Source: a virus
Direction: 5' to 3' (one strand)
Length of the DNA stretch: 28,631 bases
Virus record (IMG/VR): IMGVR_UViG_3300020470_000155
Coordinates: 1-28,631 of that record
Shown: one piece after another, positions 6,959 through 27,679 of the stretch
Layout of the letters: each line of letters opens with the position of its first letter
How positions within the stretch are numbered: the stretch's first letter is position 1
Made by a program: the position numbers and the translations under genes
Notes under the pieces: generated by a model
The model's database searches: none
Seen by the model: only the letters and a program-made list of their open reading frames with translations
What the model was told of the DNA's origin: nothing

Positions 6959-8866
6959 ATGGCACAGTTAAACGTAACAGAATTAGATTTTGATCAAATC
7001 AAATCAAACTTAAAAACATTTTTAAAATCTCAAACAGAATTTTCAGATTATAATTTTGAAGGTTCTTCTTTTGCAGTTTTAATAGATCTATTAGCATACA
7101 ATACACATTATAATGGTGTGTTGGCAAGTATGTTAGCAAACGAATCATTTTTAGATTCAGCAGTTAAAAGAGAATCAGTAGCATCATTAGCAAAAGCAAT
7201 AGGTTATACACCAAGGTCTAATAGAAGTCCTACTGGAAAAGTAAACTTAACAATTACACCTACATCTGGTTATACAAGTACAAACCTAACTTTACCTAGG
7301 TCCACAACTTTTACATCTACATTTGAAGGTGTTACATATCAATTTTATCCAAAAGAAGATGTTACTGTATCAAAATCAGTGGTAGACAATGTTGGTGTTT
7401 TTGTTTTTAATGACTTAGAACTTAAAGAAGGAATAAGAGTAACAAACCAATTTACAGTAGAAACAGCAAATCCACAAGGTCCTTATGTTATACCTAATAA
7501 AAGAATAGACACTACAACTATTAGAGTAAGAGTACAAACATCATTATCTGATACAACATTAACAACTTGGAATGTATCAGATAAGTTTTTAGATATAAAA
7601 AATGATACAAAGACATGGTGGTTAGAAGAGGGAGCAGATGGTTTATACCAATTAAGATTTGGAGATGGTGTAATAGGACAAAAATTAACTGTAGATAATG
7701 TAGTTATAGTTGATTACATTGCTACAAAAGGAGATGATGCTAATGGTTGTAAAACTTGGTCAATAAGTTCTACAGTAACAGGATCAGGCGAAACGGCTTC
7801 ACTAACTACGGTTGCTGATGCGTCATCGGGAGCAGCAAAGGAATCTATAGATAGTATTAGATTTAATGCACCAAGAGTTAATGCTACAAGAGATAGAGCA
7901 GTAACATCAAAGGATTACCAATCATTAATTTTAGCAAGTAATCCAAACATACAATCGGTTGCAGTATGGGGCGGAGAGAAAAATGACCCACCTATATATG
8001 GTAAAGTGTTTATATCACTTAATCCTGTATCAGGATATACAATAACAACACAAGACCAAGATAATATTTTAAACTCTATTATTAATCCTAAAACACCAGT
8101 AGCGATTCAACCTGAATTTGTAGATCCGGAATTTGTTTATATAGGATTAAAAATTAAAGCAGCATATGATCCTAAGGTTACAACATTATCTCAAGGACAA
8201 ATTAAGTCTGCTATAAGTTCTTCTGTTAATGAATATTTTGAACAAAACTTAAACAAACTTAATAAAAGTTTTTATATTTCAAGAATACATGATCTAATAG
8301 TTTCAGATTCAGAATCAATTATATCAGTTAATATAGAACCTTACTTACAGAAAAGAATAGATCTTACTTTAAATTCTCCTTTTGCTTATGAGGCAAAATT
8401 TAATACTAAGGTACAACCAAGAGAATTAAAAAGTTCATATTTTGATGTAGAACTATCAGGAAATACACATAAAGTCTATTTAAGTGATACACCAGCGTCA
8501 ACAGTAGTTGCACCTAATTATACTGGAACAGGTACAGTTAATTTTGTTGACACAGATGGAACTACAATAATAGGAACAGCAGGAACAATTGATTATGATT
8601 CTGGAACAGTTTCATTAAATTCCATGACAGTTAAATCATTATATGGCACAGATAAAAAATTAAAAGTAAGAATTAAACCACATGATTCATATAAAGACAT
8701 CACAACAGATGCTCTTATACGAACATCGGATACATCAACAGCAGCAGTAGTAGCAAAACCATCTAGGAATACGGTATTAACTCTAGATGATAGTGCAGCA
8801 AGTTCAACAACAAATACTGATGTTGGTGTTGATATTACAGTAACACCTGAAGTAGAAGAGATCTAA
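6959..8866 (+). CDS. 6: Baseplate wedge subunit gp6 (baseplate J-like)
   Basis: The 635-residue product is near the length of T4 gp6 (660 aa). Its N-terminal helical domain is typical: [68 protein letters not shown]. The ring-forming baseplate-J core follows, with [13 protein letters not shown] (a near-invariant G-D-G strand turn), [20 protein letters not shown] and the [13 protein letters not shown] segment. The last ~150 residues ([20 protein letters not shown] onward) are beta/Thr-rich. gp6 dimers clamp gp25 and gp53 and make the inner baseplate ring. An AAGG-rich stretch at the end of gp25 serves as Shine-Dalgarno. The stop overlaps the gp7 start (TAATG). Confidence 0.9.
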
Positions 8867-11421
8867 TGACTGATTACATACCAGCCTTTTATAGATATGT
8901 TTCATCTATAACAATAACAGCAGCAGGCTCTGGTTACACTACCGCACCTACAATTTCAATAACAGGTGGAGGTGGCACAGGAGCAACAGCAACTGCTACT
9001 ATTTCAACGTCTGGTACAGTAACAGGAATAACAATTACAAATAAAGGAACAGGTTATACAAGTGTTCCTACAGTAACAATATCTGGTGGGGGTGGTACAG
9101 GAGCAACAGGAACAGCAGTATTAGATGCTGCACAAGGCTCTATTTCAGAAGAAACACATAAAACATCTTGGACAGTAGAAGAACAATTCCCTTCTTATAT
9201 TAAAGACACTCATCCTAACTTCGTAACTTTTGTTAAAAAATATTATGAATTTATGGATCAAACAGGGAAACAAAGCGATTCAATAGCAAACTTTAATGAA
9301 ACAGATATTGATTATGCACAAGAAAAATTCTTAGAAAAGTGGAGATTAGTATTAGCAAATGACTTTCCTAAAAATATAAAAGCAGATAAATCCTTTTTCT
9401 ATAAAAGAGCCAAAGACCTTTATGAATCTAAAGGTACAAGAAGATCAATAGAAACATTCTTTAGAGTGTTATATAACGAAAACGTAGAAGTTACATATCC
9501 AGGTAAATATGTATTAAGAGCATCTGATGGTATTTGGAGTAAAGAACAAGCAATTAAAATACAAGAAGCTGAACATGGTGGAGCAAAAGAACCTTTATCA
9601 TTAGAAGGTAAAAATGTAGACATTAGATATTATGAAACAGGTGCTTCAAGTCAGGTTACAGTTTTAAAAACATTAAATGCAAGTGTTGCAAGAGTAGAAA
9701 AGAACACATATCAAACAAATGGTTTAACATTACAAAGATTTGAATTAGTTCTAAAATTCCCAGATGGTGCAGTTACAGAAGCAGATGTCCACGGGCCTGG
9801 AGCAGGTGCTGTTGGTACTGTTACATTATCTGGTGGAGCAGTTACAGGTGTAACATTATCTAATGATGGTTATCAATATAACGCAGCACCGGTTGTTAAT
9901 TTCTATGGAGATGGCACAGGAGCAAAAGGACACGCATTAGTAGACGGCAGTGGAAATATTTCAAGTGTCGTTGTAACAGCAGGCGGTTCTGGATACACCG
10001 AATGTAAAGTAGAATTTGAAACTGATACTTTAAAATCTTTTGTTATTGATGATGGCGATACAGATGCAATTTCAAACATATATGGTTATTTAACAAGAGT
10101 GTTGCAAACAGTAGGAGCAGGAACTTATGCAGGCTCTAAAACAGATGCAGGATTTAGAGTAGATCAAATTTATAGAATTAATGAATCTGGAGATGATGGT
10201 AGAGGGTATGCTGTATCAGGTTACTTTGCAGAAGACTACACATTTATAGGTGGTCAGAATAATGCTTATGTTAGAGTTACATCAATAGGTGCAAACGGAA
10301 GTGCTACAACAGGTGTTCCATTAACATTTACAGTTATTAATCCAGGTTCTAACTTCTTCGAGAACAACGCAACGATAACACTTGTATCTCCAACAGGAGA
10401 AAGTGTTACAGTAACATTAACCTCAGGTTACTTATTTGAATATGAAGGTAAGTGGAAAGATGACAGAGGTAAGATATCTGACGTTAATGTTATACAAGAC
10501 AATAATAGATATCAACCATATTCATATATTATTAAATCAGGTCTTCAGCAAACAGAGTGGGGTAGAAGAATAAAAGATACAATACACCCAGCTGGTATGG
10601 CAGTATTTGGTGATTTAATAATTAGAAGTGATATAGAATTCAATACAGAAATTTCTGTTACTACAACAGGAACAATATTCTGGAAATTTATTTCTACAAC
10701 TGAAGTTACAACTTCTGAGGTAGTAGTAAAATCATTCAGTCTGGTTAAAGCAACTACAGCGACGGCAACAGAATCCCATGCCATACACTTTGTTCCAGCG
10801 AACAAAGAAGATGTTGTACTAGCAACAGACCAAGAATCCGATCCTTATGTTGTCCAGGGTGACGGCGGTACACCTAATTCAGCATATTGGAACGACTCAT
10901 CTGATGGAAATGACGCAGATAACTACAACGTAGGTAATCCTGCTTTCTCATGGTCATTAGGTAAAAACGTGAGCGAGACACAAACTGCTAGTGATACATT
11001 CTCTAAAGTTTGGAATATTATTCGTTCATATAGTGATTCAGCAACAACCAGCGATCAAATATTATTTGATTTCCCTAAAGAATTTACTGACTCCACAACA
11101 AGCGTGGCAGATAGTTTAGTATTAGCAGTTAGTAAAGCTCTAGCGGACACATCAACAGCAACAGACGCTTTAAATAGTATATCGGTCGGTAAAAATATTA
11201 CTGAATCTAAATCCGCAACAGATGTTATTACAAGTATAAATACAAGTAAAGCATTAACAGATACAGGAACAACCTCAGAATCTGCAGCTAAAGCACTAAC
11301 AAAACCAGCGGTTGCTGATACGGCGACAGCTACAGATACTGGTATAGGATCAATGCAAGATTACGTTGATCCTACCTATTTGAGTGAAGACTATGTAGGA
11401 CAAGGTTGGAACTTTACATAA
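8866..11421 (+). CDS. 7: Baseplate wedge initiator, gp7-like, with two repeat decorations
   Basis: An 851-residue protein. Residues ~110-210 match a conserved part of T4 gp7: [59 protein letters not shown] (T4: FYSTKGIEASYKFLFKVLYN). A later [14 protein letters not shown] segment matches the T4 VHPVGFGF region. The N-terminus (15-86) and residues ~312-385 each hold a tandem pair of a Gly-rich GSGYTSAPT module. From residue 610 on, the tail is built of a 19-residue Ser/Thr/Asp repeat. T4 gp7 (1032 aa) has neither decoration. gp7 starts wedge assembly and binds gp8 and gp10. Position between gp6 and gp8 supports the call. The start overlaps the gp6 stop. Confidence 0.75.
8908..9123 (+). repeat. 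GSGY-module tandem pair 1 (gp7 N-terminus)
   Basis: Two 40-residue units, at residues 15-54 and 55-86 of gp7. Each reads hydrophobic strand, G-[ST]-G-Y-T-[ST]-x-P-T, strand, [12 protein letters not shown]. This is the clearest copy of the module that recurs in gp8 and in the giant protein. Confidence 0.85.
9800..10020 (+). repeat. GSGY-module tandem pair 2 (gp7 interior)
   Basis: A diverged pair at about residues 312-385 of gp7. The first unit has [20 protein letters not shown] and the second [14 protein letters not shown]. Spacing matches the N-terminal pair, but the sequence is more worn. Boundaries are approximate. Confidence 0.65.
10693..11340 (+). repeat. 19-residue (57-bp) tandem repeat forming the gp7 C-terminus
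   Basis: Units begin with a small/acidic pair and a T-[AST]-x-[DE] core, for example [39 protein letters not shown] and ADTATATD. They repeat every 18-19 residues with a hydrophobic second half ([22 protein letters not shown]). At least seven units are clear. Two earlier ones ([16 protein letters not shown]) share the spacing, with an irregular gap between. The pattern suggests a fibrous beta or coiled extension. Confidence 0.75.
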
Positions 11422-13535: not shown

Positions 13536-16500
13536 ATGGCATTAAATTTAAACGCATCACCATATTATGACGATTTTACAGAATCGTCAAAGTATCACAA
13601 GATCCTATTTAAACCAGGAGTTGCGGTACAAGCCAGGGAGCTAACACAATTACAGACTATATTACAAGACCAATTCCAAAAAGGTTTTAGTTTTGTAGTT
13701 CAAGAAGGTACTGTAATATCAGGTTGTTCCGAGATAACAAACAGATTAGAGTATATTAAAGTCAATGATACTGATAATGCCTCAGCAGCAATTGATAATA
13801 CAACTATGGCCAGCTTTGTTGGAGACACAGTAGGTGGTGGCACAACAGGAATAACAGCAGATATTGTTAGAGTAGCAACAGGAACAGAAGGTGCTGCCCC
13901 TTTAACTAAAACATTATATTTAAAATATACTTCACACGGCAGTCAAACAAAACACACATTTCAAGCATCAGAAGTATTAACAGTTACTTCTAGAGTTTCA
14001 GAAACAATAACCGTATCAGCAGGTGGTAGTGGTTATACAAGTGCACCAACAGTAGCATTTAGTGCACCAACAGGATCAGGACAAACAGAAAAAGCCACAG
14101 GTACAGCAACAGTATCAGGTGGTGCCGTTACAAAAATTACCTTAACAAATAAAGGTAAAGGTTATACAAGTGCACCTACTATTACATTAACAGGTGGTGG
14201 AGGCTCAAGTGCTACTGCTACAGCAACATTAGATAGTTCAAATGCAGGTAAAACATTTGTTGTAAGAACAACAACATCAGCAACAGTAGAAAAAGATAAC
14301 TTTTTTGGAATAGCACCTTTAGTTAAATTATCAGAAGGTATTATATATGCTAGAGGAGCATTTATAAAAACAGACGCATTAGATGTATTAATTAATCCTC
14401 ATGGTGTATCTGGAGATAAAAAAGTAGGTTTTGTTGTTACAGAAGCAGCAGTTAACTCTGCAACAGATACAACACTATTAGATCCTGCAGCAGGGTCTTA
14501 CAACGCTAATGCTCCAGGAGCAGATAGATTAAAATTAACTGTATCCTTAGCATCATATTCTAAAACAGATACAATACCTGAAAACTTCTATACCTATATG
14601 CAATACACCAATGGTATAGCAAGAAGGTCACAAACAAAAGAAAATCCTTTAGCTGGTTTAGGACAAATACTAGCAAACAGAACAATGGACGAGTCGGGTA
14701 ACTACGTCGTTAAAGGATTACAAGTAACAATAAGAGAACATTTAGAAAACGCAGCAAAAACAAATGGTGGTTATTTACCAGCTGCTCTAGGCGGTCAAAG
14801 TCATTTGTTGGCAGCAGAAATTTCACCAGGTAAAGCTTATGTAGGTGGATTTAAAAGAGAATTACTTTCATCTAAAAGAATTCAGATTGTTAAACCTAAA
14901 GATACTAAATGGATAGCAGATCAAACAATATCAACATCATCAGGAACTTATGTAGAAGTTAATGAAATGTGTGGTTATTGGGATATTGATAGTGGTTCAG
15001 TAGTAGATTTATATGGATCAGCACAGGATGCTGTTTCAGGTGGAGCACATTCAGCAGATTCATTAACAGGTAGTATTGTTGGTAAGGCAAGAGTTAAAAG
15101 TATTAAATATTCATCAGGTACAGTAGGTGCTGCAGCAGCGGTATTTAGACTTTATCTATATGATATAAAAATGGCTTCCGGAGATTTCTCAGCAGTTAAA
15201 TCAATTGTATATGAACATGCAGAGACAAGAGGAATTGCAGACACAGTTTTAGATGGAGATAGTAAAGCTACACTTAAAGAAGCAGAACTTAACAAACAAC
15301 TATACAGATTACCTAGATCTAATGTTAGAACTATAAAAACAGCAAGTTCAGGTACTGCTTATGATAACAGCTTTACATACTTAAAAGAATTTGATGGAAC
15401 ATTAGATGCTTCCCAAGGTAATATAACAATTACTACATCTGGTGATGAAACATTTAACGTTTCAGGAACTTTAACAGATACACAAATTTTAGATAACTTT
15501 ACATTAATAGCAAAAGATGGTTATACACAAAACTCTGCTACTATAGATGAAGGTCAAATGATTGACTTAACATCATCTAATTCTGACGCATCGGTAACAG
15601 TTAACAGCGGAACATCAGTTACTATTGATTTAGGTGGTGCAGTTACAGGTGCCAATAGAGGTGTTAGAATATATGCTATTGTAAAGAAAACAAATGCAAC
15701 ACCAATGGCAAAAGCATTGGCATCAAGCAGATATGTAAAAATTGATACGGGCACTCACTTAAATGGTGCAAGTGGACCGTTTAGTTTAGGAATACCTGAT
15801 GGTTGGAAATTAGAAACTCTTACAGCAGGAACAAATTCAGACTACACAACAGGACAAACAGATGTTTCAAGTGAATTTAAATTTGACACAGGACAAAATG
15901 ATAACTTCTATGGACACGCAACACTATTTAAGAAGTCTTCAAGTACAACAGACTTTTCAACAAATAGATATATTGTAGCTAAGTTTACACACTTCACTCA
16001 TACAAAAACATCAGCAACATATTTTACTGTTGATTCATATCCAGTAAATGATGCAACAGATACATTTAGAACTGAAGATATACCTATATACAATTCAGTT
16101 AAACATGGAGATTTTGATTTAAGAAATTGTTTAGACTTCCGTCCGTTAGCAGTGGCAACAGCAACTTCAACAGCAACATTAGGAAGTGCAACAGTTAATC
16201 CAGATTCAAGTGAAGTATTAGAATCAGCACTAACACAACCAAATCCATCAGGAACATTTACTACTGATCTATGGTATTATATTGGAAAGGGTGGTAGAGT
16301 TATATGTGACCAAGATGGTATATTTAGAGTAATATATGGCACACCTGAGGACACTCCTAATATTCCACCTGAACCAGAAAATACAATGTCGTTGGCAGAA
16401 TTTACTTTGCCTCCTTATCCAACATTGTCAATAGGTTCAGCAAGATTAGTAAATAGATTTGATTTATCAGTAAATATTAAACAAATAGAAAACAAACATT

Positions 16501-19500
16501 ATACGATGAAAGACATTAGTCAGTTAGAAAATCGTATATCAAATCTAGAATATTACGCATCACTTAACTTACTAGAGAAAGCAGCAAAAGACCAAAAGAT
16601 TGTTAATTCATCAGGTATCGATAGATTTAAAAATGGCATCTTAGTAGATCCATTTACAGGACATAATATAGGTTCAGTAACAAACCCTGACTATAATATT
16701 GCAATAGATGATAAAAAACAATTAGCAAGACCTTATTACGATGTAGAAAATATAAACTTAAAGTTAAATTCAACTAACTTTGGATTTACACAAAGAGGCG
16801 CATTAGTATCATTACCATTTGAACAAGTACCATTCATGCAACAAAATAAAGCAAGTGGTATTGTTAATGTTAATGGAGAAGACATACATGATTACTTTGG
16901 AGAAATGAATATTCAACCTCCAGTAGATAACTTTGTAGACATATCCACAAAACCAGATGTATTAGCTAATTTTGATGGCAACTATGATGCTTGGGAAAAA
17001 TATCACAACGATAATCCTTTTAAAACTTCTTGGGGAGCTTGGGAAAATGTTGGGGGTTCACGTGTTATAGCATCATCTGTTGATTCTGTAGATGTTAGAA
17101 GCGCAACAACAACAAGAACAGACACAATTTATACAAATACAGTTGAACAAAATCAAACAAGAACAGGTGTTAGGACAACAGTTACACCACAAACAAATGA
17201 ACAACGACTAGGACAAAAAGTAGTTAATGCTTCTTTAGCACCTTTTATGAGAAGTATTGAACTTAACATAACTATTTACAGACTTAAACCAAATACAAGG
17301 CACTATCCATTCTTTGATGGTAAACCTGTTACAGATCATTGTAAAAGAGGAGCAACATCAGCAGCAACATTAGGTGAAGCATTATATACAGATGCTTCAG
17401 GTACACTATCAATTAATTTTGTAATACCACAAGGAGAATTTAGAACAGGCCAAAGAGTATTCAAGGTAACAGATTCAAAAGTTAACAATGATAAAATAGC
17501 AAGATCAAGAGCCAGCGCTCTTTATGAGTCTACAGGATTACAACAAGAAGTTCAAGACACAATAATTTCTATGAGAACTGCTAATTTCTCATCAGTAACA
17601 TTTACAGATGATAGAACAATAACAGACACAAGTGTAGATAGAACAATAGGATCTGAGATACCTATTGAACCTGTACATCATTACAATCCACCAATGTCTC
17701 AGACTAGAAAACCAGAACCATCAGATCCGACGCCTCAAGATTCTAATGTAATTGGGTGTAACTTAGATGACAACAAAGACACAAGCCCAACTGGAGGTCA
17801 TAAAGACATAATCCCAGATCCAGATGCAATAGACTTAACATCGGATAATGATGACACTCCTTCTAATACCAATCAAGATAATGATACAGGAGAAGAAGAA
17901 AATTCTACTGATAATGTAACAAAAACCGATGATACACATGACAACACCGCAGACGTAGATCCAACTGGAACTAATAGTGAAGGAGATAATGTTGATGAAG
18001 ATCCTAATACAGGCGGTTATAGAATACATTCAAATACAGAAAACATTATGCACATTGGTTTCGAAGGTCCTCATGGTGCTATGCACTATGGAGGTAATAT
18101 AATGATGCCTATAGCAGGAGATCTTGATGTAACAGGTATAGTAGGAATTAGTGCAATTAGTTACAGTCCACCTGCACCAATAACACATACTAATAAAGCA
18201 TTGACGTATGTTAAAAAAGAAACCAGTAGTTTTGCATCACATGTATCCAGTTACAGTCCTATAGAAGGCGGTATATATGGCGAATTCGATGGCAACAGTT
18301 TAATGGAAGGTGGTTATCACGGTGGTGGTATGTATAATGCAGTTGAATTTGCATCACAATTAATGATGAAATGTCATGGACAAACTTTTAAAGTTACAGG
18401 AAAACCTGGTGGTGTTTATATAGATTCAATAGACTTGTTCTTTAAGAACAAACCATTAGATGTTGATACAGGAGTTACAGTAGAAATAAGAGAAGTAGTT
18501 AAAGGAATGCCTGGACCTAAGGTAGTACCACATGGTACAGCTTTTGTTAACAGAAATAACATTGGAGTATCACAAGAAGTTGGAGGTGTAACAACATTTG
18601 TTCCAACTAACTTTAAATTTGATTCATTAGTTTATCTTAAAAATAATACAACATATTGCTTTATTCCATCATCACTAAATTCAGTTAGTGGTTTTGATAT
18701 GTATATGGCAAAACTAGGAGACAATGAAGTAGGAACAACAACAAGAATAGATAAACAACCACATGAAGGTATGATGTTTACAAGTTCAACAGCACTAGGT
18801 GCTCAAGCAATACAAGATCAAGACTTGATGTTTAGAATATACAGAGCAAGATTTGATACTTCAGCAGCAATGACAGGTTCATGGAATAATGACCCTTCAG
18901 ATTATATAACATTTAAAGATTGGGGCAACAGTATAACAAAATTCCCAACAGGAGAATATATTAATGGATTTGATTTCACAATATCAAATGCAGGATCTGG
19001 TTATAGTAGTGCACCAACAGTAACAGTATCTGGAGGCGGAGGAACTGGACTTGCATTAACAGCAGTAATGGCAGGCTCTGGTTCAACTCAAACAGTTAGT
19101 AGTCTAACAATAGATACAAGTTCTGGATTCCCAAGTGGTTATACAAGTGCACCTACAATTACAATAGCAGCACCTGGTGGCGGTGGAACAACTGCTACAG
19201 CTACTGCAACATTAAATAGAGGTTATGTGGGTTGGTGTAATACTGCAGATGACTATGCAATAGTTAAAGTATTAGAGGGAAGTTTCCAAGCTAATGACGT
19301 ATTGTTTGGACCAGCAGGTTATGCAACAGTATCATCAATAGATAACAGAGTTCTTAATGATATAACAATGAACGCAGGTGTTCAAAATCCATATGGTACT
19401 CTACTATACGCAGAAATGAAATTAACACCAACAGGTGCAGCAACTGAAACAAATTATATTCCGTTAGAGATAAACAAAACTCAAAAATTAAATAAAGAAT

Positions 19501-20342
19501 ACACTATATACAGTCGTTCAAACGAGGTAGCATCATATAGCGGTAATAACACAGCAGAAATAAGAATGACAATGCAGACATCATTAGACAATGTAAGCCC
19601 TGTTTTAGATATGTACCAATTTGATTTGTTGGGTATAACTAATAAAGTTAATAATGATTCAACAAATGAAACTAATCCTAAAGGAGGCAATGCTACTTCT
19701 AAATATATAACAAGGACGGTTGTATTAGAAGACGGGCAAGATGCAGAAGACATAAAAGTTTATTTAACAGCATCTATACCTAATACATCTAGCATAGAAG
19801 TTTATGGTAAGTTTTTACACGGTTCAGATGATGGTAATTTTGATGAAGATATTAACTGGACAAAACTTTCAACATCAACTAGCCCAGCAGAAAGAACAGA
19901 TGAGTTTGCAGAATATAGTTGGACAATACCTGCTAAATCAGGAGGTGTAGGCCTAAACGGATCTGGTGCATTAGAATATGATGTAGGAAGAATATCATCG
20001 ATAGCTGTTAGTGGGTCAATGTCAGGTTACAATAACATACCTACAATAACATTATCGGGTGGCGGTGGTTACGGAGCAACTGCCACAGCAACAGTCTCAG
20101 GTGGGGCAATAACAGCAATTAATGTTGTTAACCCTGGCAGAGGATATACAAGTGCTCCAACGGTTGCTATAACACCTCATGCTAGTGATTCATCAGCTAC
20201 AGGAGCTTCAGGAACCGCAACAGTAGGAACAACCACTTATACAGGATATAAATCCTTTGCAGTTAAAGTGGTGCCTTTAAGTTCAACAACAGTCTCTCCT
20301 CCTTTCTTTAAGGAGTTAAGAGCAATAGCATTACAGAGTTAA
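13536..20342 (+). CDS. Giant tail/baseplate structural protein, DUF4815-like, 2268 aa
   Basis: The N-terminus ([59 protein letters not shown]) is the start I associate with DUF4815 tail proteins of marine T4-like phages. It may anchor the protein to the baseplate. After a GSGY pair (156-233) come long beta-rich stretches. A conserved-looking segment [28 protein letters not shown] falls near 1240-1275. An acidic disordered linker follows at ~1382-1495, then a jelly-roll-like region ([32 protein letters not shown]) and two more GSGY pairs at ~1812-1894 and ~2152-2217. It occupies the T4 gene 9-12 region, so it probably supplies outer baseplate or fibre-attachment functions, but direct homology to gp9-gp12 is not seen. 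An AGGATAA ribosome site precedes the ATG. Confidence 0.8.
14001..14235 (+). repeat. GSGY-module tandem pair 5 (giant protein, N-terminal third)
   Basis: Residues ~156-233: [20 protein letters not shown] then [20 protein letters not shown] with SATATATL. Both units keep the Y-T-S-A-P-T loop. Confidence 0.85.
17680..18018 (+). other. Acidic, disordered linker inside the giant protein
   Basis: About 113 codons rich in Asp, Asn, Thr, Glu, Ser and Pro with almost no bulky hydrophobics, for example [20 protein letters not shown] and [20 protein letters not shown]. It separates the N-terminal two thirds from the C-terminal third. It could be a flexible tether, and the many Asp residues could bind Ca2+. 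Both roles are inference. Confidence 0.65.
18971..19218 (+). repeat. GSGY-module tandem pair 6 (giant protein, C-terminal third)
   Basis: Residues ~1812-1894: [20 protein letters not shown] then [20 protein letters not shown] with TTATATATL. The second unit is longer between its parts than in other pairs. Confidence 0.8.
19990..20185 (+). repeat. GSGY-module tandem pair 7 (giant protein, C-terminus)
   Basis: Residues ~2152-2217: [20 protein letters not shown] with ATATATV, then [20 protein letters not shown]. It lies within the last ~120 residues of the protein. Confidence 0.8.
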
Positions 20343-21102: not shown

Positions 21103-22395
21103 ATGAGACCATTAAGAGTAAAAGCATCTGGATCGCCAGTTAGTTCTTCAAACTTCCAAGGTTTGCAGGAAATGACTGATGCCGAGATCGAGAAATATTA
21201 TTCAGCAATTATTACAAAAGATTTTGCAGACAATACAGACGGTACAGGTACTGCAGAATTAAATGTAACAACTAATGCTTCAGGTGCTGGAACTACTATT
21301 GGTACAGTAACCGATACAAAAAGAGATGACGCAGTAGGCACTCACCCTACAGATGGTGCTTCATCAACAGTTACTACATACACAGCAAAACAAGTAACAG
21401 GAGCAGCATCAGAAAGTATTACTAACAGACCTGTAGGTTGGGAAACATCAGGTAATGTAGGTATAAATGAATTTACAGATTCAGAGTTAGATTCAGACAT
21501 TATTGATAAAATAATAGCAGATATGGTTGGACAAGGAAACTATACTGTTGGTCAATATTCATTAAACGCAAGTTCACCAAGTGGTGGAACATGGACATCT
21601 AGATATACATTAGCAGATACATTAGTAGACGGCACAACCAATAACATGTATATTTGGCAAAAAACAGCAGCAACAACAGCAGCAGATGATGATCTTAAAC
21701 CTATAAAATTAGTTGAAACTTCAAACCTTAGAGAAATGACCGTTGCTGAGATGGAACAAATTGTTGCTAACTTTAGAAACAGAATTGTAGAAAACTTTTC
21801 TACAACACAAGGTGTTGGTACATATAAATTACAAGCTTCTACACCTAGTGAAACAGGGACTTGGACTCAAATGGGAGATGCAGCAGGATTTACAGATACA
21901 AAGAAAGACGTAGGTTCACAAAACTATACTGGAAGTTATAGTGGTGCTTATTCAGGAAACTATGCAGGTAATTACACAGGTCCAAAAACTTATGCAGGTA
22001 ATTACACAGGTCCAAAATCGTATGGAGGTAACTATTCAGGAACATCAGCATATGCAGGAACATATGGTGGTACATCAGGATATGCTAAAACATACGCAGG
22101 AGCATACTTACATGATTATGGTGGGTATGGCGGACCACCTAGTTACTCAGGAAACTATGTAGGATATTATACAGGACCTAAAAACTATACAGGTAACTAT
22201 ACAGGACCTAAGGTGTATGCAGGAGCATATACAGGAACATCAGCATATGCAGGAACTTACACAGGAACATCAGCATATGCAGGCACATATTCAGGAACAT
22301 TTACTGGTACATTCGAAGGAACATATGCAGGTGATACAATACTAAACACTAGCTCAACAGTCAGTACGGTAAAATTGTGGCTAAGAACTGCTTAA
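21103..22395 (+). CDS. Tail-fibre-like structural protein with Tyr/Gly decapeptide repeats, 430 aa
   Basis: The start has an AAGGGAATAGG ribosome site. The first ~270 residues contain duplicated helix-strand motifs: LQEMTDAEIEKYYSAIITKD, INEFTDSELDSDIIDKIIAD and LREMTVAEMEQIVANFRNRI. Each is followed by a beta part (GTGTAELNVT, TVGQYSLNAS, GVGTYKLQAS), so this part looks like three copies of one domain. The rest (273-~415) is a YAGNYTGPKT / YAGTYTGTSA repeat with no Cys or Lys-rich core. The last residues (TSSTVSTVKLWLRTA) are ordinary. It is the last gene before the next late promoter and is likely a surface-exposed appendage. Repeat expansion or contraction is expected to make its length variable. 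Confidence 0.7.
   Translation: MRPLRVKASGSPVSSSNFQGLQEMTDAEIEKYYSAIITKDFADNTDGTGTAELNVTTNASGAGTTIGTVTDTKRDDAVGTHPTDGASSTVTTYTAKQVTGAASESITNRPVGWETSGNVGINEFTDSELDSDIIDKIIADMVGQGNYTVGQYSLNASSPSGGTWTSRYTLADTLVDGTTNNMYIWQKTAATTAADDDLKPIKLVETSNLREMTVAEMEQIVANFRNRIVENFSTTQGVGTYKLQASTPSETGTWTQMGDAAGFTDTKKDVGSQNYTGSYSGAYSGNYAGNYTGPKTYAGNYTGPKSYGGNYSGTSAYAGTYGGTSGYAKTYAGAYLHDYGGYGGPPSYSGNYVGYYTGPKNYTGNYTGPKVYAGAYTGTSAYAGTYTGTSAYAGTYSGTFTGTFEGTYAGDTILNTSSTVSTVKLWLRTA
21921..22340 (+). repeat. 30-bp minisatellite encoding the Tyr/Gly decapeptide
   Basis: Units of 30 bases encode Y-A-G-x-Y-[TS]-G-x-x-x. The copies at 21961-21987 and 21991-22017 are identical over 27 bases. A 23-base block at 22231-22253 recurs exactly at 22261-22283. 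Half-units of 12 bases (YSGx) open the array. The near-identity indicates recent duplication by slippage or recombination. Confidence 0.9.
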
Positions 22396-22431: not shown

Positions 22432-22929
22432 ATGGCGAAGAATCAACCAAAAGTTGAACGTATAACAAACGAAGATCCCAAACCAAAAAAATACGAATAT
22501 CGAGATCCTTATTGGTCTAATAAAGATAACGAGCATATGATCGTTACTTTAGAATATCCCGATGGTAGGAAATCTACAGCATCAATAACGGGAAAAGATA
22601 ATCCTGATTTTAAAGCTGTTATAGAACAGTTTGGTGAAAAGACTTTAGATGAGAATACAGCGGAAGGCATCAAAAGACGTGATACTCAAATAAAACAAAG
22701 ATTAGAAAGAAGAGAATCACAAGCTGCTAGACAACAACAAGAAGTATTATTCAATGCAAAGTTAGAAGCATTTGAAATTGAAGCAGTTAAAGACTCTAAA
22801 AATACACCACTCAAAAGACTTATTCGTAAAGCAAAAACTCCATTAGAAGTAACAGCATATACGACAATATTAATAACAGATCAATTGAAGGCAACAGGTG
22901 TATTAGATGGCAAAAAGAAAAAGAAATAA
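22432..22929 (+). CDS. Basic helical protein of unknown function, 165 aa
   Basis: The first ~60 residues are charged with one beta hairpin (HMIVTLEYPDGRKSTASITG). A long Arg/Gln/Glu helix follows (RRDTQIKQRLERRESQAARQ), probably a coiled coil. The C-terminal ~50 residues contain LKRLIRKAKTPLEVTAYTTI and LITDQLKATGVLDG. The protein ends in five lysines. The lysine-coding A-rich end overlaps the glycosyltransferase start by 23 bases in another frame. I do not recognise the family beyond its recurrence after fibre genes in marine T4-like phages. A virion-associated or fibre-related role is conceivable. Confidence 0.7.
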   Translation: MAKNQPKVERITNEDPKPKKYEYRDPYWSNKDNEHMIVTLEYPDGRKSTASITGKDNPDFKAVIEQFGEKTLDENTAEGIKRRDTQIKQRLERRESQAARQQQEVLFNAKLEAFEIEAVKDSKNTPLKRLIRKAKTPLEVTAYTTILITDQLKATGVLDGKKKKK

Positions 22930-23698
22930 TATACCAGACAATGGTTTCTTAATTGTTGCCAGTTTATATAATCCTTTTTACAAAGCAGCTATTGAACTAG
23001 CAGAGTCAATTAAATTATTTTATCCAGAAACACATGTTACAATATTTATAGATTCATCTGAAATACAGTACCTGTGGAAAGAAAAATTAAATACATTACC
23101 ATTTAAAGCATCCTCAGATTGGTATGAACATATAGATCAAATGGTTTCAACAGATGTGCCTAAACATATAAGAGCTAAACTTTGGGCATTAAGTAAAACA
23201 CCATACAAAGGCAAAACAGTTTATTTAGATGCTGATATGATGTGTGAACATGAAGATGTAGAAAACATATTTGATCAACTAACAGATGATTTAGATTTAT
23301 TATTTACAAAAATAAGACCTTATAATGCTAAGGTAACAAAACTTACAAACACAGAAGAAATGACAGCCCATTGTGGTATGTTTATATACAGAAATAATCC
23401 TCAAACAATTACCCTAATGGAATCTTGGTATGGGGAATATTTAAAACAAACTGAAAAAACAAATAAAGGTGGTTGGGTTAATACAATAGGACAGTATCCA
23501 GATGATGTTAGAAAGTGGGATACTTTTACAATGTGGAAATTATTAACATATAGTGATCATGGTGTCAGGTGGGACGATAATTTACATTGCCGTTGGAATT
23601 TTGTAAATGGTTATCATCCTAATGAGTTAGAAGATTTAGATAGAGTATTTTATCATTATACTATACCGGAGCATGTTATACACGCTAAAAAGAAATGA
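22907..23698 (+). CDS. Glycosyltransferase, GT-A fold (GT8-like)
   Basis: The 263-residue product starts with a basic MAKRKRNN leader, then a Rossmann-type strand and helix (GFLIVASLYNPFYKAAIELA-ESIK) and THVTIFID. HIRAKLWALSKTPYKGKTVY precedes the LDADM motif with a D-x-D at residues 108-110, which in GT-A enzymes binds the metal and nucleotide-sugar phosphates. Later features typical of GT8-like proteins are THCGMFIYRNN-type strands (TAHCGMFIYRNN), GGWVNTIGQYPDDV and a C-terminal VFYHYTIPEHVIHAKKK with a metal-ligand-like His. It might glycosylate virion proteins, lipopolysaccharide or DNA; the substrate cannot be read from sequence. The gene overlaps its upstream neighbour by 23 bases and its downstream neighbour by ATGA. 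Confidence 0.75.
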   Translation: MAKRKRNNIPDNGFLIVASLYNPFYKAAIELAESIKLFYPETHVTIFIDSSEIQYLWKEKLNTLPFKASSDWYEHIDQMVSTDVPKHIRAKLWALSKTPYKGKTVYLDADMMCEHEDVENIFDQLTDDLDLLFTKIRPYNAKVTKLTNTEEMTAHCGMFIYRNNPQTITLMESWYGEYLKQTEKTNKGGWVNTIGQYPDDVRKWDTFTMWKLLTYSDHGVRWDDNLHCRWNFVNGYHPNELEDLDRVFYHYTIPEHVIHAKKK

Positions 23699-24351
23699 AG
23701 TTTATAGATATATCAGATGAATTGTTAGAAATGTTAGAGCCATATTCGGATTGGTTCTTCAAACAGGACCTAACACATTTGATAGAAATGTCTGAACAAA
23801 ATCCAAAAAATACAGGTGAGAGTTTAGAGTATTGTTGCAGTGAAGAATACTTAGATGTTATTGTTACAAAAGATGGTAGACATGAAGGGTATCCTGAAAT
23901 ATCATATAGCTGTGATATAATGGAAAACTCTGGAAAGATAGACAAAAATTTTAAAGAACCACAGAAAGAATTACAAACAAAATTAACACAATGGTTAGGA
24001 GCAAGGAATGAAGCGGTTCATGTATTTTATCCTGTCAATGGTTTTATGGGGTGGCATAATAATTGGAATGCCCACGGTTATAACATACTTCTTTCTTACA
24101 CAGAAAACGGAGGAGGGTTCTTTAAATACAGAGACCCAAAAACACATGAAGTGGTTCACTTACAGGACCCTGGTGGGTGGTCATGCAAAGTAGGTTATTA
24201 TGGTAGGGGTCGAGAACCTGATAAAGTTTACTACCATTGCGCTGGAACTACAGAGCCTAGAGTGACCCTAGGGTATGTTATACCCCACCTAGAACTCTGG
24301 AGGGACATGTGTAGCGATATTTCGGGGCAAGACTGCTATAATTTTGAATAA
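23695..24351 (+). CDS. 2OG-Fe(II) oxygenase-like protein with atypical metal triad
   Basis: The 218-residue protein has the order of a double-stranded beta-helix oxygenase. GFMGWHNNWNAHGYNILLSY puts a His at 121, but with Asn at 123 where Asp/Glu is usual. A strand with GGGFFKYRDPKTHEVVHL follows, then a distal VYYHCAGTTEPRVTLGYVIP with His181 and Arg189, in the places of the second metal His and the 2-oxoglutarate-binding Arg. If the motif assignment is right, the facial triad is H-x-N...H, so the enzyme could be altered, use a water ligand, or be inactive. Related HTN-type proteins occur in marine T4-like phages from memory. Translation is coupled to the glycosyltransferase through ATGA, so the two may act on the same target. 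Confidence 0.5.
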   Translation: MKFIDISDELLEMLEPYSDWFFKQDLTHLIEMSEQNPKNTGESLEYCCSEEYLDVIVTKDGRHEGYPEISYSCDIMENSGKIDKNFKEPQKELQTKLTQWLGARNEAVHVFYPVNGFMGWHNNWNAHGYNILLSYTENGGGFFKYRDPKTHEVVHLQDPGGWSCKVGYYGRGREPDKVYYHCAGTTEPRVTLGYVIPHLELWRDMCSDISGQDCYNFE

Positions 24352-25349: not shown

Positions 25350-25593
25350 GTCTGATTAATGCTTTTCTTACAATAGCAATACCAGTCAATCCCAAAAAAT
25401 TTATAAACGCAGCCATCTCAGACGAGGTGCCTGCGTAGTCAATGCATGCCTTGATAATTGCAACACTCAATGGGAACATAATTATTGCGCCTATTGCAGT
25501 ATCAACTGTTGACTCGTGAAGTGCTCTTCTTAATCTTTTACTTTGAACCAATTGCCATAAACCTTTCAAAATATACTTTACCATTCCAATCAT
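25318..25593 (-). CDS. Small two-helix membrane protein, 91 aa
   Basis: After a basic amphipathic start (MVKYILKGLWQLVQSKRLRR) there are two hydrophobic segments, AIGAIIMFPLSVAIIKACID and AFINFLGLTGIAIVRKALIR, then a basic tail. The layout of Q-S-K-R, a first membrane helix starting T-A-I-G, a second membrane helix and R-K-A-L-I-R-L-R-F resembles the small phage membrane family annotated DUF7220; this is from memory and uncertain. The first ~50 bases overlap the end of the methyltransferase-like gene. The start could be the ATG at 25593 or the one at 25584. It is last in the minus-strand operon and converges on the 53-aa membrane protein. Confidence 0.65.
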   Translation of the reverse strand: MIGMVKYILKGLWQLVQSKRLRRALHESTVDTAIGAIIMFPLSVAIIKACIDYAGTSSEMAAFINFLGLTGIAIVRKALIRLRFESKYNRK

Positions 25594-26206
25594 AGTAAAA
25601 TTGTTTTACCTTGCCAGAATAAAAAGTATCTTTCAACCCTGCATTTTCTATTAATGCTTTTTCACTATCCACACAATTAATACCATACATCTCTTCTATT
25701 ACATTCGAATTCTGTACAGCAAATATAGCGTGTTTGTTTGCAGTGGTTAATTCTTTTAATGGGTACATCTGTTCTGCTCCCATTGTGATTACTACATCTA
25801 CATTCAGTTGATTTAATTCATCAAAAGCAAAAGGAACATCTAAGTTCCAGTGATTTATTTTAATATATTCTTCTGCTATATAATGTTTATGGAATACTTT
25901 AGATAACTCTAGAGCTTCCTGATCTATATCAACTAAGTGTAATTCTCCTACTGATAAATTTTCACATAATAAAGGAACTAAAGGTATCCCTAACCAACTA
26001 TTTAAGATTAATATTTTAAACTGTTCGTCTTTCATATAATCTTCTAAGGATTTTTGTAGTTCTTCTACTAACCAAATACCAGCTTCCATTGTATTAGGAT
26101 TTAAACTTTGCCTAAAGTCATCATGCTTATGTTTCATTTCATGTTCAACTTTAGCGAGGCCTTCTCCCCAATATTTCATACTATTTAAAAAGTTAAAATT
26201 TAACAT
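25538..26206 (-). CDS. SAM-dependent methyltransferase-like protein, 222 aa
   Basis: The ATG at 26206 (MLNFNFLNSMKYWGEGLAKV) is chosen because GCAAAGAAG precedes it and the overlap with the upstream gene is then only 14 bases; an ATG at 26263 would overlap by 71. A Rossmann-like core follows a helical start: FKILILNSWLGIPLVPLLCE at motif I, LHLVDIDQEALELSKVFHKH with the acidic residue that usually binds the SAM ribose, and VDVVITMGAEQMYPL at the motif IV place. Motif I is degenerate (N-S-W-L-G-I instead of D-x-G-x-G), so SAM binding is uncertain. The substrate is unknown. It lies between glycosyltransferase and membrane-protein genes in one overlapping operon. Confidence 0.55.
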   Translation of the reverse strand: MLNFNFLNSMKYWGEGLAKVEHEMKHKHDDFRQSLNPNTMEAGIWLVEELQKSLEDYMKDEQFKILILNSWLGIPLVPLLCENLSVGELHLVDIDQEALELSKVFHKHYIAEEYIKINHWNLDVPFAFDELNQLNVDVVITMGAEQMYPLKELTTANKHAIFAVQNSNVIEEMYGINCVDSEKALIENAGLKDTFYSGKVKQFYYDWNGKVYFERFMAIGSK

Positions 26207-26873
26207 CTTCTTTGCGTCCCATTGAATCAAATAAACAGACATATGGTATTTGTCTGAATACATGCGTTTCTACATCATGTGGAAATATATAGCCATAGTT
26301 ATAACTATAAAACCACCCTAAAGGAAAGTATTTAATTCTTGCTACACCTTTGTGCATAAAGAAGTTATCTAATCCCCTATAGTACCATAAGATTTTTTCT
26401 TTGTGTGCTTTAAAATAAAGAGTAATATTTTCTTTATCTAAGTTATCATTCCATCTTAATATACTAGAATTTAAATCTGTATATCTGTGAGGAACATGTT
26501 CTGTTTCTTTTGCTTGTGTTTCTAAATCGTGCCAATGTGTCTGTCCAAAACATAAACAATCCTCAGGATCAAAGTTCGCTATATCATCTATGTTCTTTTG
26601 TATAATAATATCTAGATCAAAGAAAAGATTCTCTCCTTTTTGTCTAACAACATTATCATCAAACAGATACATTTTGTTCCACCATTTTTCTAATTTGTTA
26701 TCTGCTGGAAAAGGAATAACATTAATATCCTTATCCAGTCCTTGTTCTTTTTCTGTTAGACAGTAAAATGTAAAATCTTGTGTAATATACTCTTTACAAG
26801 ATTCGTATATTTGATTAACATGTTTAGCAGAATATTTACTGCCCCATTTTACTGTATAAATGTTCATTGCCAA
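26193..26873 (-). CDS. Glycosyltransferase-like protein, paralogue of the next gene upstream, 226 aa
   Basis: The protein opens with a strand and K-W-G-S-K-Y loop (IYTVKWGSKYSAKHVNQIYE), then FTFYCLTEKEQGLDKDINVI-PFP. A glycosyltransferase D-x-D motif follows in LFFDLDIIIQKNI (D86, D88). The same blocks occur in the same order in the gene immediately upstream in the operon, so the two arose by duplication. This copy lacks the ~30-residue insert before the D-x-D that its paralogue has. The C-terminal half (YRGLDNFFMHKG, FPLGWFYSYNYGYIFPHD, PYVCLFDS) also matches its partner. The start may be ATG 26873 or 26867; either overlaps the upstream stop. Substrate unknown. Confidence 0.7.
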   Translation of the reverse strand: MAMNIYTVKWGSKYSAKHVNQIYESCKEYITQDFTFYCLTEKEQGLDKDINVIPFPADNKLEKWWNKMYLFDDNVVRQKGENLFFDLDIIIQKNIDDIANFDPEDCLCFGQTHWHDLETQAKETEHVPHRYTDLNSSILRWNDNLDKENITLYFKAHKEKILWYYRGLDNFFMHKGVARIKYFPLGWFYSYNYGYIFPHDVETHVFRQIPYVCLFDSMGRKEDVKF

Positions 26874-27679
26874 TGCTTTAATAATTGTGGATCAACCAAA
26901 TCATTTTGTTTAACATGCCCTCTACCTTTAGTCATTTGTTTAGGTAGTAAGTCAATATTAAATACACAAAGAATAGGTGTTTCCCTATATATTTCTGTTT
27001 GCAAATCATCATCGTCCCAACTACGACCTCTATTATATGAGTAAGCATAGTCTGCTGGGAAATGATCCCATAATTTTTTACCCCAATCTCCCCATCGCCA
27101 ACTGTGGTAATTGTCTGTTCCGTCTGTATATGTAAACCATATCTTTTCTTGATTTTCTAAAACATCTTCCCATATACATTCTGCTTGGTCGTCGGACCAA
27201 ACTTGGCAACTGCCATTTGTATATGCTCCATGTGATAATTTAAATCTCCGCGTCTTCATTGGGCGCGGGTCTTGCCACCAACTTCTTAATTTAGTTGGTC
27301 TTTCCATATTATAGGTCAATAAAGGCTCTATATTATTTTGTATTATTATATCTAAATCAAAGAATATAAATCTACCTGTTGGTTTATCTTCTGCAAAATT
27401 ATGAGTATTGAAAACCATTGTTTTAGGTCTATCCCAACACCTTGCCATTCCATATTTAAAATCTTCTCCACCAAACCAATACTTAGGATGTATATTAGGT
27501 ATATCTGGAAAAGGTATTACTTTTACATCTTCATCTAAACCTTCAGCATCATCAGTATAACAATAGAAATGGAAATCATGTTTCTCATCACAATTTCTTC
27601 TTGCCATATTTTTTAATCTGTTTACAAAATGAGGACCATATCTTGTGCCCCATTTAGAACAAACTACATTAACTCTCAT
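26864..27679 (-). CDS. Glycosyltransferase-like protein, 271 aa
   Basis: It has the shared blocks VCSKWGTRYGPHFVNRLKNM, FHFYCYTDDAEGLDEDVKVI-PFP and FIFFDLDIIIQNNI with D-x-D at residues 108-110. The insert before the D-x-D (YWFGGEDFKYGMARCWDRPK) is missing from the paralogue. The C-terminal part is Trp- and Asp-rich (KLRSWWQDPRPM, TDGTDNYHSWRWGDWGKKLW, DYAYSYNRGRSWDDDD) and could form an unusual acceptor site. The fold should be GT-A with a metal-dependent nucleotide-sugar donor site. It overlaps the 78-aa gene upstream by 11 bases and its paralogue downstream by 10. The target may be phage particles, the host envelope or a small molecule. Confidence 0.72.
   Translation of the reverse strand: MRVNVVCSKWGTRYGPHFVNRLKNMARRNCDEKHDFHFYCYTDDAEGLDEDVKVIPFPDIPNIHPKYWFGGEDFKYGMARCWDRPKTMVFNTHNFAEDKPTGRFIFFDLDIIIQNNIEPLLTYNMERPTKLRSWWQDPRPMKTRRFKLSHGAYTNGSCQVWSDDQAECIWEDVLENQEKIWFTYTDGTDNYHSWRWGDWGKKLWDHFPADYAYSYNRGRSWDDDDLQTEIYRETPILCVFNIDLLPKQMTKGRGHVKQNDLVDPQLLKHWQ

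Follow-up and report, generated by a model that had tools for sequence, protein, structure and literature searches.

Searches for 2-oxoglutarate (2OG) oxygenases rely on an HxD/E motif, or on HxA/G in the case of the halogenases, according to the available part of one account of these enzymes (PMC10947486). A family that kept all of the iron site except the acid, with Asn fixed in its place, would therefore be missed. The same partial source describes oxygenases in which the acid ligand is altered or absent: two His ligands suffice for AspH, and even one for its variants, and in FIH some activity survives when the acid is replaced by Gly, though not by Ala or Glu (PMC10947486). On these excerpts an acid ligand is dispensable, since AspH is active without one; an Asn is nevertheless not obviously benign, because in FIH activity is kept in part with Gly only.

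Glycogenin (GT8), a protein glucosyltransferase that serves here as a fold comparison, glucosylates a Tyr of its own. The mimivirus protein L230 has dual hydroxylase and glycosyltransferase activity. Human LH3 and L230 both pair a collagen lysyl hydroxylase with a glycosyltransferase around a Gly-rich repeat protein, going by the portions of that literature at hand. In pelagimyophages GT8 is the commonest glycosyltransferase family, and an aspartyl/asparaginyl beta-hydroxylase annotation stands among the core genes, as given in the accessible part of the study (PMC7029224). Among the literature matches listed, which lay mostly outside subscription journals and bioRxiv and were seen in part, none dealt with a 2OG oxygenase bearing HxN, with the HxN protein family or with a phage fibre cassette of the kind described here.

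The window, meaning the whole stretch of DNA that was analysed, comprises the 28,631 bases of a virus record. Baseplate- and tail-type genes precede a cassette which encodes, in order, a probable tail fibre with (Y/F)xGx repeats, a small protein, a glycogenin-like glycosyltransferase and an oxygenase-fold protein that we call the HxN protein. The last, of 218 amino acids, is the product of an ORF with an ATG start (23695..24351, + strand) and includes the stretch ...FMGWHNNWNAHGYNI... in its sequence. W120 H121 N122 N123 are encoded by bases 24052-24063, and H121-N122-N123 (24055..24063) takes the place of the canonical HxD/E. A distal His, H181 (24235..24237), and an Arg of the 2OG type, R189 (24259..24261), follow on the same strand. 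The original prediction, made from the sequence of the window, had named a WHNN motif, a distal His and an Arg, all of which are present.

An AlphaFold2 model of the HxN protein, built with 55 family sequences, has a mean pLDDT of 94.3, a pTM of 0.90 and eight core strands (residues 108-112, 117-121, 128-136, 141-146, 153-157, 161-170, 180-185 and 189-196). In this model the second strand ends with HxN, the first turn of the seventh contains H181, within the predicted strand, and the eighth opens with R189. Canonical 2OG enzymes have the same strand order for proximal His, distal His and Arg. The top VIA-align matches are PHD2 and the Pseudomonas putida prolyl-4-hydroxylase (3oui and 4j25; both Z 9.8, with rmsd 4.0 and 3.5 over 152 and 149 residues), and the jelly-roll match to the prolyl hydroxylases spans residues 1-198. 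Among the Foldseek matches are P4H, AlkB, AspH and the P4H of a chlorella virus, with E from 9e-5 to 1e-3, the AspH chains 5apa and 7yb9 having E below 1e-3; their TM-scores by query of only ~0.25-0.39 indicate a likeness of fold and not close kinship. One uncharacterised phage protein in a library of viral models matched over its full length (TM 0.91, 35 percent), and the remaining 49 among the matches listed had a TM of 0.40 or less by query. The HxN protein is, on this model, a double-stranded beta-helix, a jelly-roll resembling that of the prolyl hydroxylases. This is the fold originally predicted, and neither VIA-align nor Foldseek yielded an alternative.

The likeness to PHD2 and the P. 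putida P4H thus consists of the modelled jelly-roll and the order of the three residues, whereas Asn stands for the acid ligand and no significant sequence match links the family to these enzymes. AspH is comparable as a Foldseek match and as a 2OG oxygenase described, in the accessible part of the source, as active without an acid ligand (PMC10947486). It differs in reading HxG, a motif absent from the family, and the HxN protein has no match to a Pfam 2OG family. With the 2OG halogenases (HxG/A) the family shares the lack of an acid ligand; these have Gly or Ala at the position occupied here by Asn, and the HxN gene has glycosyltransferase and fibre partners.

Sequence libraries gave no convincing Pfam, PHROGs or NCBIfam match for the HxN protein of the window. 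No Pfam 2OG family exceeded its curated cut-off with this protein, with 33 members or with six further members, and a search of PDB sequences returned 0 hits. Several weak matches were rejected, namely an HNH endonuclease in PHROGs (E 0.097), antibody and PDE-delta PDB profile rows with E above 0.4, taken as chance, and CENP-T_C in 10 of 33 members (best E 0.00054), which was set aside against the fold result. A mini-G-protein PDB profile match (E 0.00079) covered profile positions 44-93, outside the core, and was also taken as chance. One divergent member aligned with PHROG 61, a 2OG-Fe(II) oxygenase, over residues 63-127 at E 0.0048, too weak to use. Alignment by hhalign with canonical 2OG oxygenases of the same phages (PF13640 proteins) was non-significant, at probabilities of 5.4 and 0.8 percent, and the global profile alignment covered only 22 columns; as read from the non-significant local alignment, N123 pairs with Asp, H181 with His and R189 with Arg, a placement consistent with the assignment above. 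Matches to canonical PF13640 oxygenases are also present in 10 of 14 phage records with an HxN gene (G001, G002, G003, G006-G008 and G010-G013; 9 over the cut-off), with up to four matches per record.

Relatives were confirmed by tblastn in viral contigs, in overlapping search sets from each of which at most 80 loci were taken. The window protein as query gave 130, the first alignment 211, the homologue from phage C48C1 115, a WHTN member 114 and a divergent member 11. Of 50,697 phage records, C48C1 (OQ984149) was the only one with a homologue reaching E 1e-5 (34 percent); a remote homologue in a 595-kb uncultured phage record reads WHSN. A pattern-based scan of a bacterial and archaeal genome collection confirmed 4 loci, on metagenome-bin contigs that probably represent phage DNA; two of them share one contig, and one of these two follows a tail-tube homologue. 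L248, from the same scan, is a family member on a contig binned as Bifidobacterium breve, which may be misbinned phage DNA. The HxN family would appear to consist largely of proteins of aquatic phages.

For conservation, 343 hits in 342 loci were reduced to 174 distinct aligned sequences, 173 of which have a residue at position 123. This residue is Asn in 173 of 173, which is above chance and upholds the earlier claim of an Asn at the acid position. H121, N125, N130, D158, G161, W162, K165, H181 and R189 are likewise identical in 173/173, so that the two His and the Arg of the 2OG type are invariant down to ~30% identity. Position 122 varies (N 133, T 39, H 1), and a fixed Asn beside a variable middle residue is the pattern expected of an H-x-N ligand motif. 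A set of 30 loci taken from large phage records, partly re-fetched and covering two divergent clades, likewise reads WHNN or WHTN throughout (30/30); in six DnaB-side members of this set K165 is replaced by Arg, by reading of the alignment output. The WHNN stretch formed part of the seed in most searches, which biases these counts towards it, a bias from which the search seeded on the glycosyltransferase is free. Of the hallmarks of the Fe(II)/2OG oxygenase superfamily, the family therefore has the distal His (H181, 173/173) and, in R189 (173/173), a predicted counterpart of the Arg/Lys on the last core strand that holds the 2OG carboxylate; the proximal motif is HxN in place of HxD/E (173/173, and 30/30 loci), and neither is it the HxG/A of the 2OG halogenases.

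Directly upstream of the HxN gene lies a gene for a glycosyltransferase of 263 amino acids (22907..23698, + strand), assigned from its model, VIA-align scores and invariant residues as glycogenin-like (GT-A fold of the GT8 type). The model has a pLDDT of 91.5 and matches human glycogenin-1 (3t7n) with Z 15.9 and the PBCV-1 capsid glycosyltransferase with Z 14.3. D108, D110 and H250 are invariant in 50 sequences, the first two forming the DxD metal motif expected of the GT-A fold. The likeness to glycogenin thus extends over the fold, the conserved DxD and a late His, whereas Pfam, NCBIfam and the PDB contain no sequence match for this protein. A profile search against PDB sequences gave weak rows only (best E 0.027, ribosomal eS25), which were rejected. 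The gene ends in the same ATGA (23695..23698) in which the HxN gene starts. The coupling of the two genes claimed at the outset is thus real, and it is conserved, the 4-base overlap recurring in 142 of 307 loci with a glycosyltransferase, some contigs being counted twice. Two more glycosyltransferase-like ORFs lie on the opposite strand of the window, at 26193-26873 (PHROG 1962, E 4.3e-10) and 26864-27679 (E 0.012), beside a weakly methyltransferase-like ORF (25538-26263, - strand; Spermine_synth, E 0.012).

A constant third partner, overlooked in the original prediction, is the ORF with (Y/F)xGx repeats. In the window it encodes a probable tail-fibre protein of 430 amino acids (21103..22395, + strand), which we propose as substrate; its identity as a fibre rests on place and repeats, the ORF having no PHROG match at E 0.01. 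The repeat region, read from the sequence, comprises residues 275-408 (21925..22326, + strand). As means over 194 distinct repeat ORFs, position 1 is Y 0.70 and F 0.30, position 2 is T 0.37, S 0.23 and A 0.18, and position 4 is N 0.31 and T 0.20. The repeats are thus rich in Tyr, Thr, Ser and Asn, and across these 194 ORFs no hydroxylatable position is invariant and none singles out a target residue. They are not of the Gly-X-Y type found in collagen. A similar C-terminal peptide is common in the repeat proteins (for example VKLWLRTA and YTLYVRVA; 22369-22392 in the window) and is perhaps a signal for assembly or for modifying enzymes. Peptide repeats also recur in tail ORFs at 8866-11421 and 13536-20342 of the window, which match parts of many tail and virion PHROGs. 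Between fibre and glycosyltransferase lies the gene for the small protein (165 amino acids; 22432..22929, + strand), which has a homologue at the same place in phage C48C1; a count of its family was discarded, since the rise from 305 to 625 hits on iteration reflects drift.

The linkage of these genes was counted over loci, which are not independent events, many contigs appearing twice and near-copies being abundant. Of 318 loci with 900 bases or more of upstream sequence, 307 have a glycosyltransferase homologue, the 11 others all belonging to a clade found behind a tail-tube gene; in 296 loci it falls within the twenty commonest spacings, which range from a 103-base overlap to 1126 bases apart. 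A fibre-repeat ORF is present in 244 of the 256 loci with at least 3000 bases upstream, and 8 of the 12 exceptions are from the tail-tube clade. In the first neighbour set of 175 family hits, in which the window figures twice (once as L082), the upstream sequence exceeded 900 bases in 159. A glycosyltransferase homologue ended at most 600 bases upstream in 153 of these and at 0.6-1.1 kb in the other 6. Of 130 loci with 3000 or more upstream bases, 125 contained an ORF with five or more YxGxY, such ORFs numbering 145 of 5539 overall. The strand of the HxN gene is opposite to that of fibre and glycosyltransferase in L347, L375 and L415, and hence operon coupling is not universal.

The association also holds in the reverse direction. 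A search seeded on the glycosyltransferase found the HxN gene in 73 of 73 newly numbered loci, two WHTN forms included; 17 of the 73 are, by reading of the listing, on contigs new to the analysis. A scan for DNA matching five YxGx units, in which the enzymes played no part, gave at least 120 stretches. Of the 80 loci taken from it, several on contigs already known from the forward searches, 49 satisfied the fibre rule and 31 did not. Both enzymes were present in 32 of 34 testable loci; 15 more were too short, ending within 1600 bases of the fibre, and 4 of these already show the glycosyltransferase. The two exceptions lacking the HxN gene are L353, with 1637 bases, and L374, with a different-looking repeat. 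These figures are to be read with the fibre rule and the 1600-base limit in mind, as both were set after the listing was inspected and the limit was applied only to loci without the gene; the fibre rule also differs slightly among the repeat counts.

Not every family member has a glycosyltransferase partner, as two further clades demonstrate. Phage C48C1 carries three members, one in each of the three contexts: the first behind a repeat gene and a glycosyltransferase, the second directly behind a tail-tube gene, and the third with a NifU-like gene on one side and, a small gene away on the other, a DnaB-like helicase. Across 18 records searched, some of which may be fragments, 6 have three members, 2 have two and 10 have one. 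All 18 loci of the tail-tube clade, two pairs of which represent the same place, have a tail-tube homologue upstream, within ~40 bases in 17 and at 0.8 kb in L501. All 6 loci of the DnaB-side clade have a DnaB homologue no more than 0.9 kb upstream. This third clade reads WHTN, with Arg for K165, and has the DnaB helicase upstream. The HxN gene stands directly before a gene for a NifU-like iron-sulphur scaffold in L480 (28131-29176 of phage C48C1) and in L510. In a tree of 58 representatives of 373 hits, the tail-tube rows form one supported group and the DnaB rows another, and the glycosyltransferase context is spread over the remaining rows; one row, L498, is very long and of unsure placement. 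Since the glycosyltransferase context spans the family tree, the link is old.

We infer that the HxN protein binds iron and 2OG and is catalytically active as an Fe(II)/2OG-type oxygenase. On the simplest account, its predicted metal site would be formed by His121 and His181, either alone or together with a neutral Asn123 that binds through its amide oxygen. The oxygenase would most likely hydroxylate residues in the (Y/F)xGx repeats of the fibre, the gene for which stands third upstream within the cassette, and the glycogenin-like glycosyltransferase might then glycosylate the new hydroxyl, or act on the same repeats in parallel. The adjacency of fibre and tail-tube genes argues for protein substrates, though adjacency is no proof that the fibre is one, and the ~30 percent of aromatic repeat positions occupied by Phe count against the proposal. 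Overall, a hydroxylase of this kind modifying the fibre, perhaps before glycosylation, is a reading that we put forward tentatively, at a little under an even chance. Hydroxylation before glycosylation had been proposed in the original prediction; this order, suggested by the pairing, fits that pairing and the glycogenin-like partner, and is impossible for the sister clades without a glycosyltransferase neighbour. With two of three contexts lacking an adjacent glycosyltransferase it cannot be a family-wide rule.

The original prediction, right as to fold, Asn and coupling, had allowed that the fold might be used without catalysis. The protein might then be an assembly factor binding fibre or sugar, with the metal site a structural relic. 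The acid ligand is missing throughout the family and the gene lies among fibre, tail-tube and assembly genes, as this would have it; against it, both His and the Arg are kept in 173/173 down to ~30 percent identity, where relics would usually be expected to lose them, and AspH is active with two His and its variants even with one, in the accessible part of the source (PMC10947486). We accordingly disfavour a non-catalytic protein and regard it as improbable. The analogy with halogenases, in which the missing acid leaves room for a halide, is weaker still: no acid stands at the HxD/E position and a largely aquatic family might well meet a chloride-rich setting, yet halogenases have HXA/G, by the same partial source (PMC10947486), and the invariant Asn of the family would presumably fill the halide site. 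A halogenase would also leave the dedicated glycosyltransferase partner unexplained, and we consider it very improbable indeed.

A canonical triad, completed by another acid or by deamidation of N123 to Asp, seems quite unlikely. D158 is invariant and might be thought to serve, but in the model it sits in the turn joining the fifth and sixth strands, which we take, from the usual jelly-roll topology, to be at the end away from the metal. E68 and E174 are not invariant among the 174 aligned relatives (E174: E 138, D 26, Q 7, S 1, gap 2), and N123 is followed by Trp or Ala in 171/173 and never by Gly, which speaks against deamidation. The pair might, lastly, be active on host glycans, lipopolysaccharide or nucleotide sugars, for example altering a receptor, and not on the fibre. 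Pelagimyophages have a host-recognition cluster with several glycosyltransferases, for which O-chain modification has been proposed in the part of the study available (PMC7029224), and the window holds its two additional glycosyltransferase-like genes. The enzyme pair nonetheless tracks the repeat fibre in both search directions, and no glycan role is evident for the sister clades behind the tail-tube gene or near the DnaB helicase; we think such a role unlikely.

As a fibre-modifying pair, the two enzymes would resemble LH3 and L230, with the differences that they are encoded by separate genes in bacterial viruses, that the repeats are (Y/F)xGx and not Gly-X-Y, and that the oxygenase has an HxN site. 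For the sister clade beside the tail-tube gene, the tail-tube protein is a possible target. That these are widespread phage 2OG oxygenases with an obligatory Asn, which hydroxylate virion proteins, namely fibre repeats for a dedicated glycosyltransferase as well as the tail tube, is a broader and more doubtful proposition. If true, it would make the family the first natural class with an Asn triad among the literature matches listed, themselves seen in part, and it would parallel, in bacterial viruses, the hydroxylation and glycosylation of collagen. A family with a fixed Asn tests how little the iron site needs, and the tight cassette names a candidate substrate for mass spectrometry. It would then become possible to test directly how tail fibres are modified in aquatic phages and what this does to adsorption and stability.
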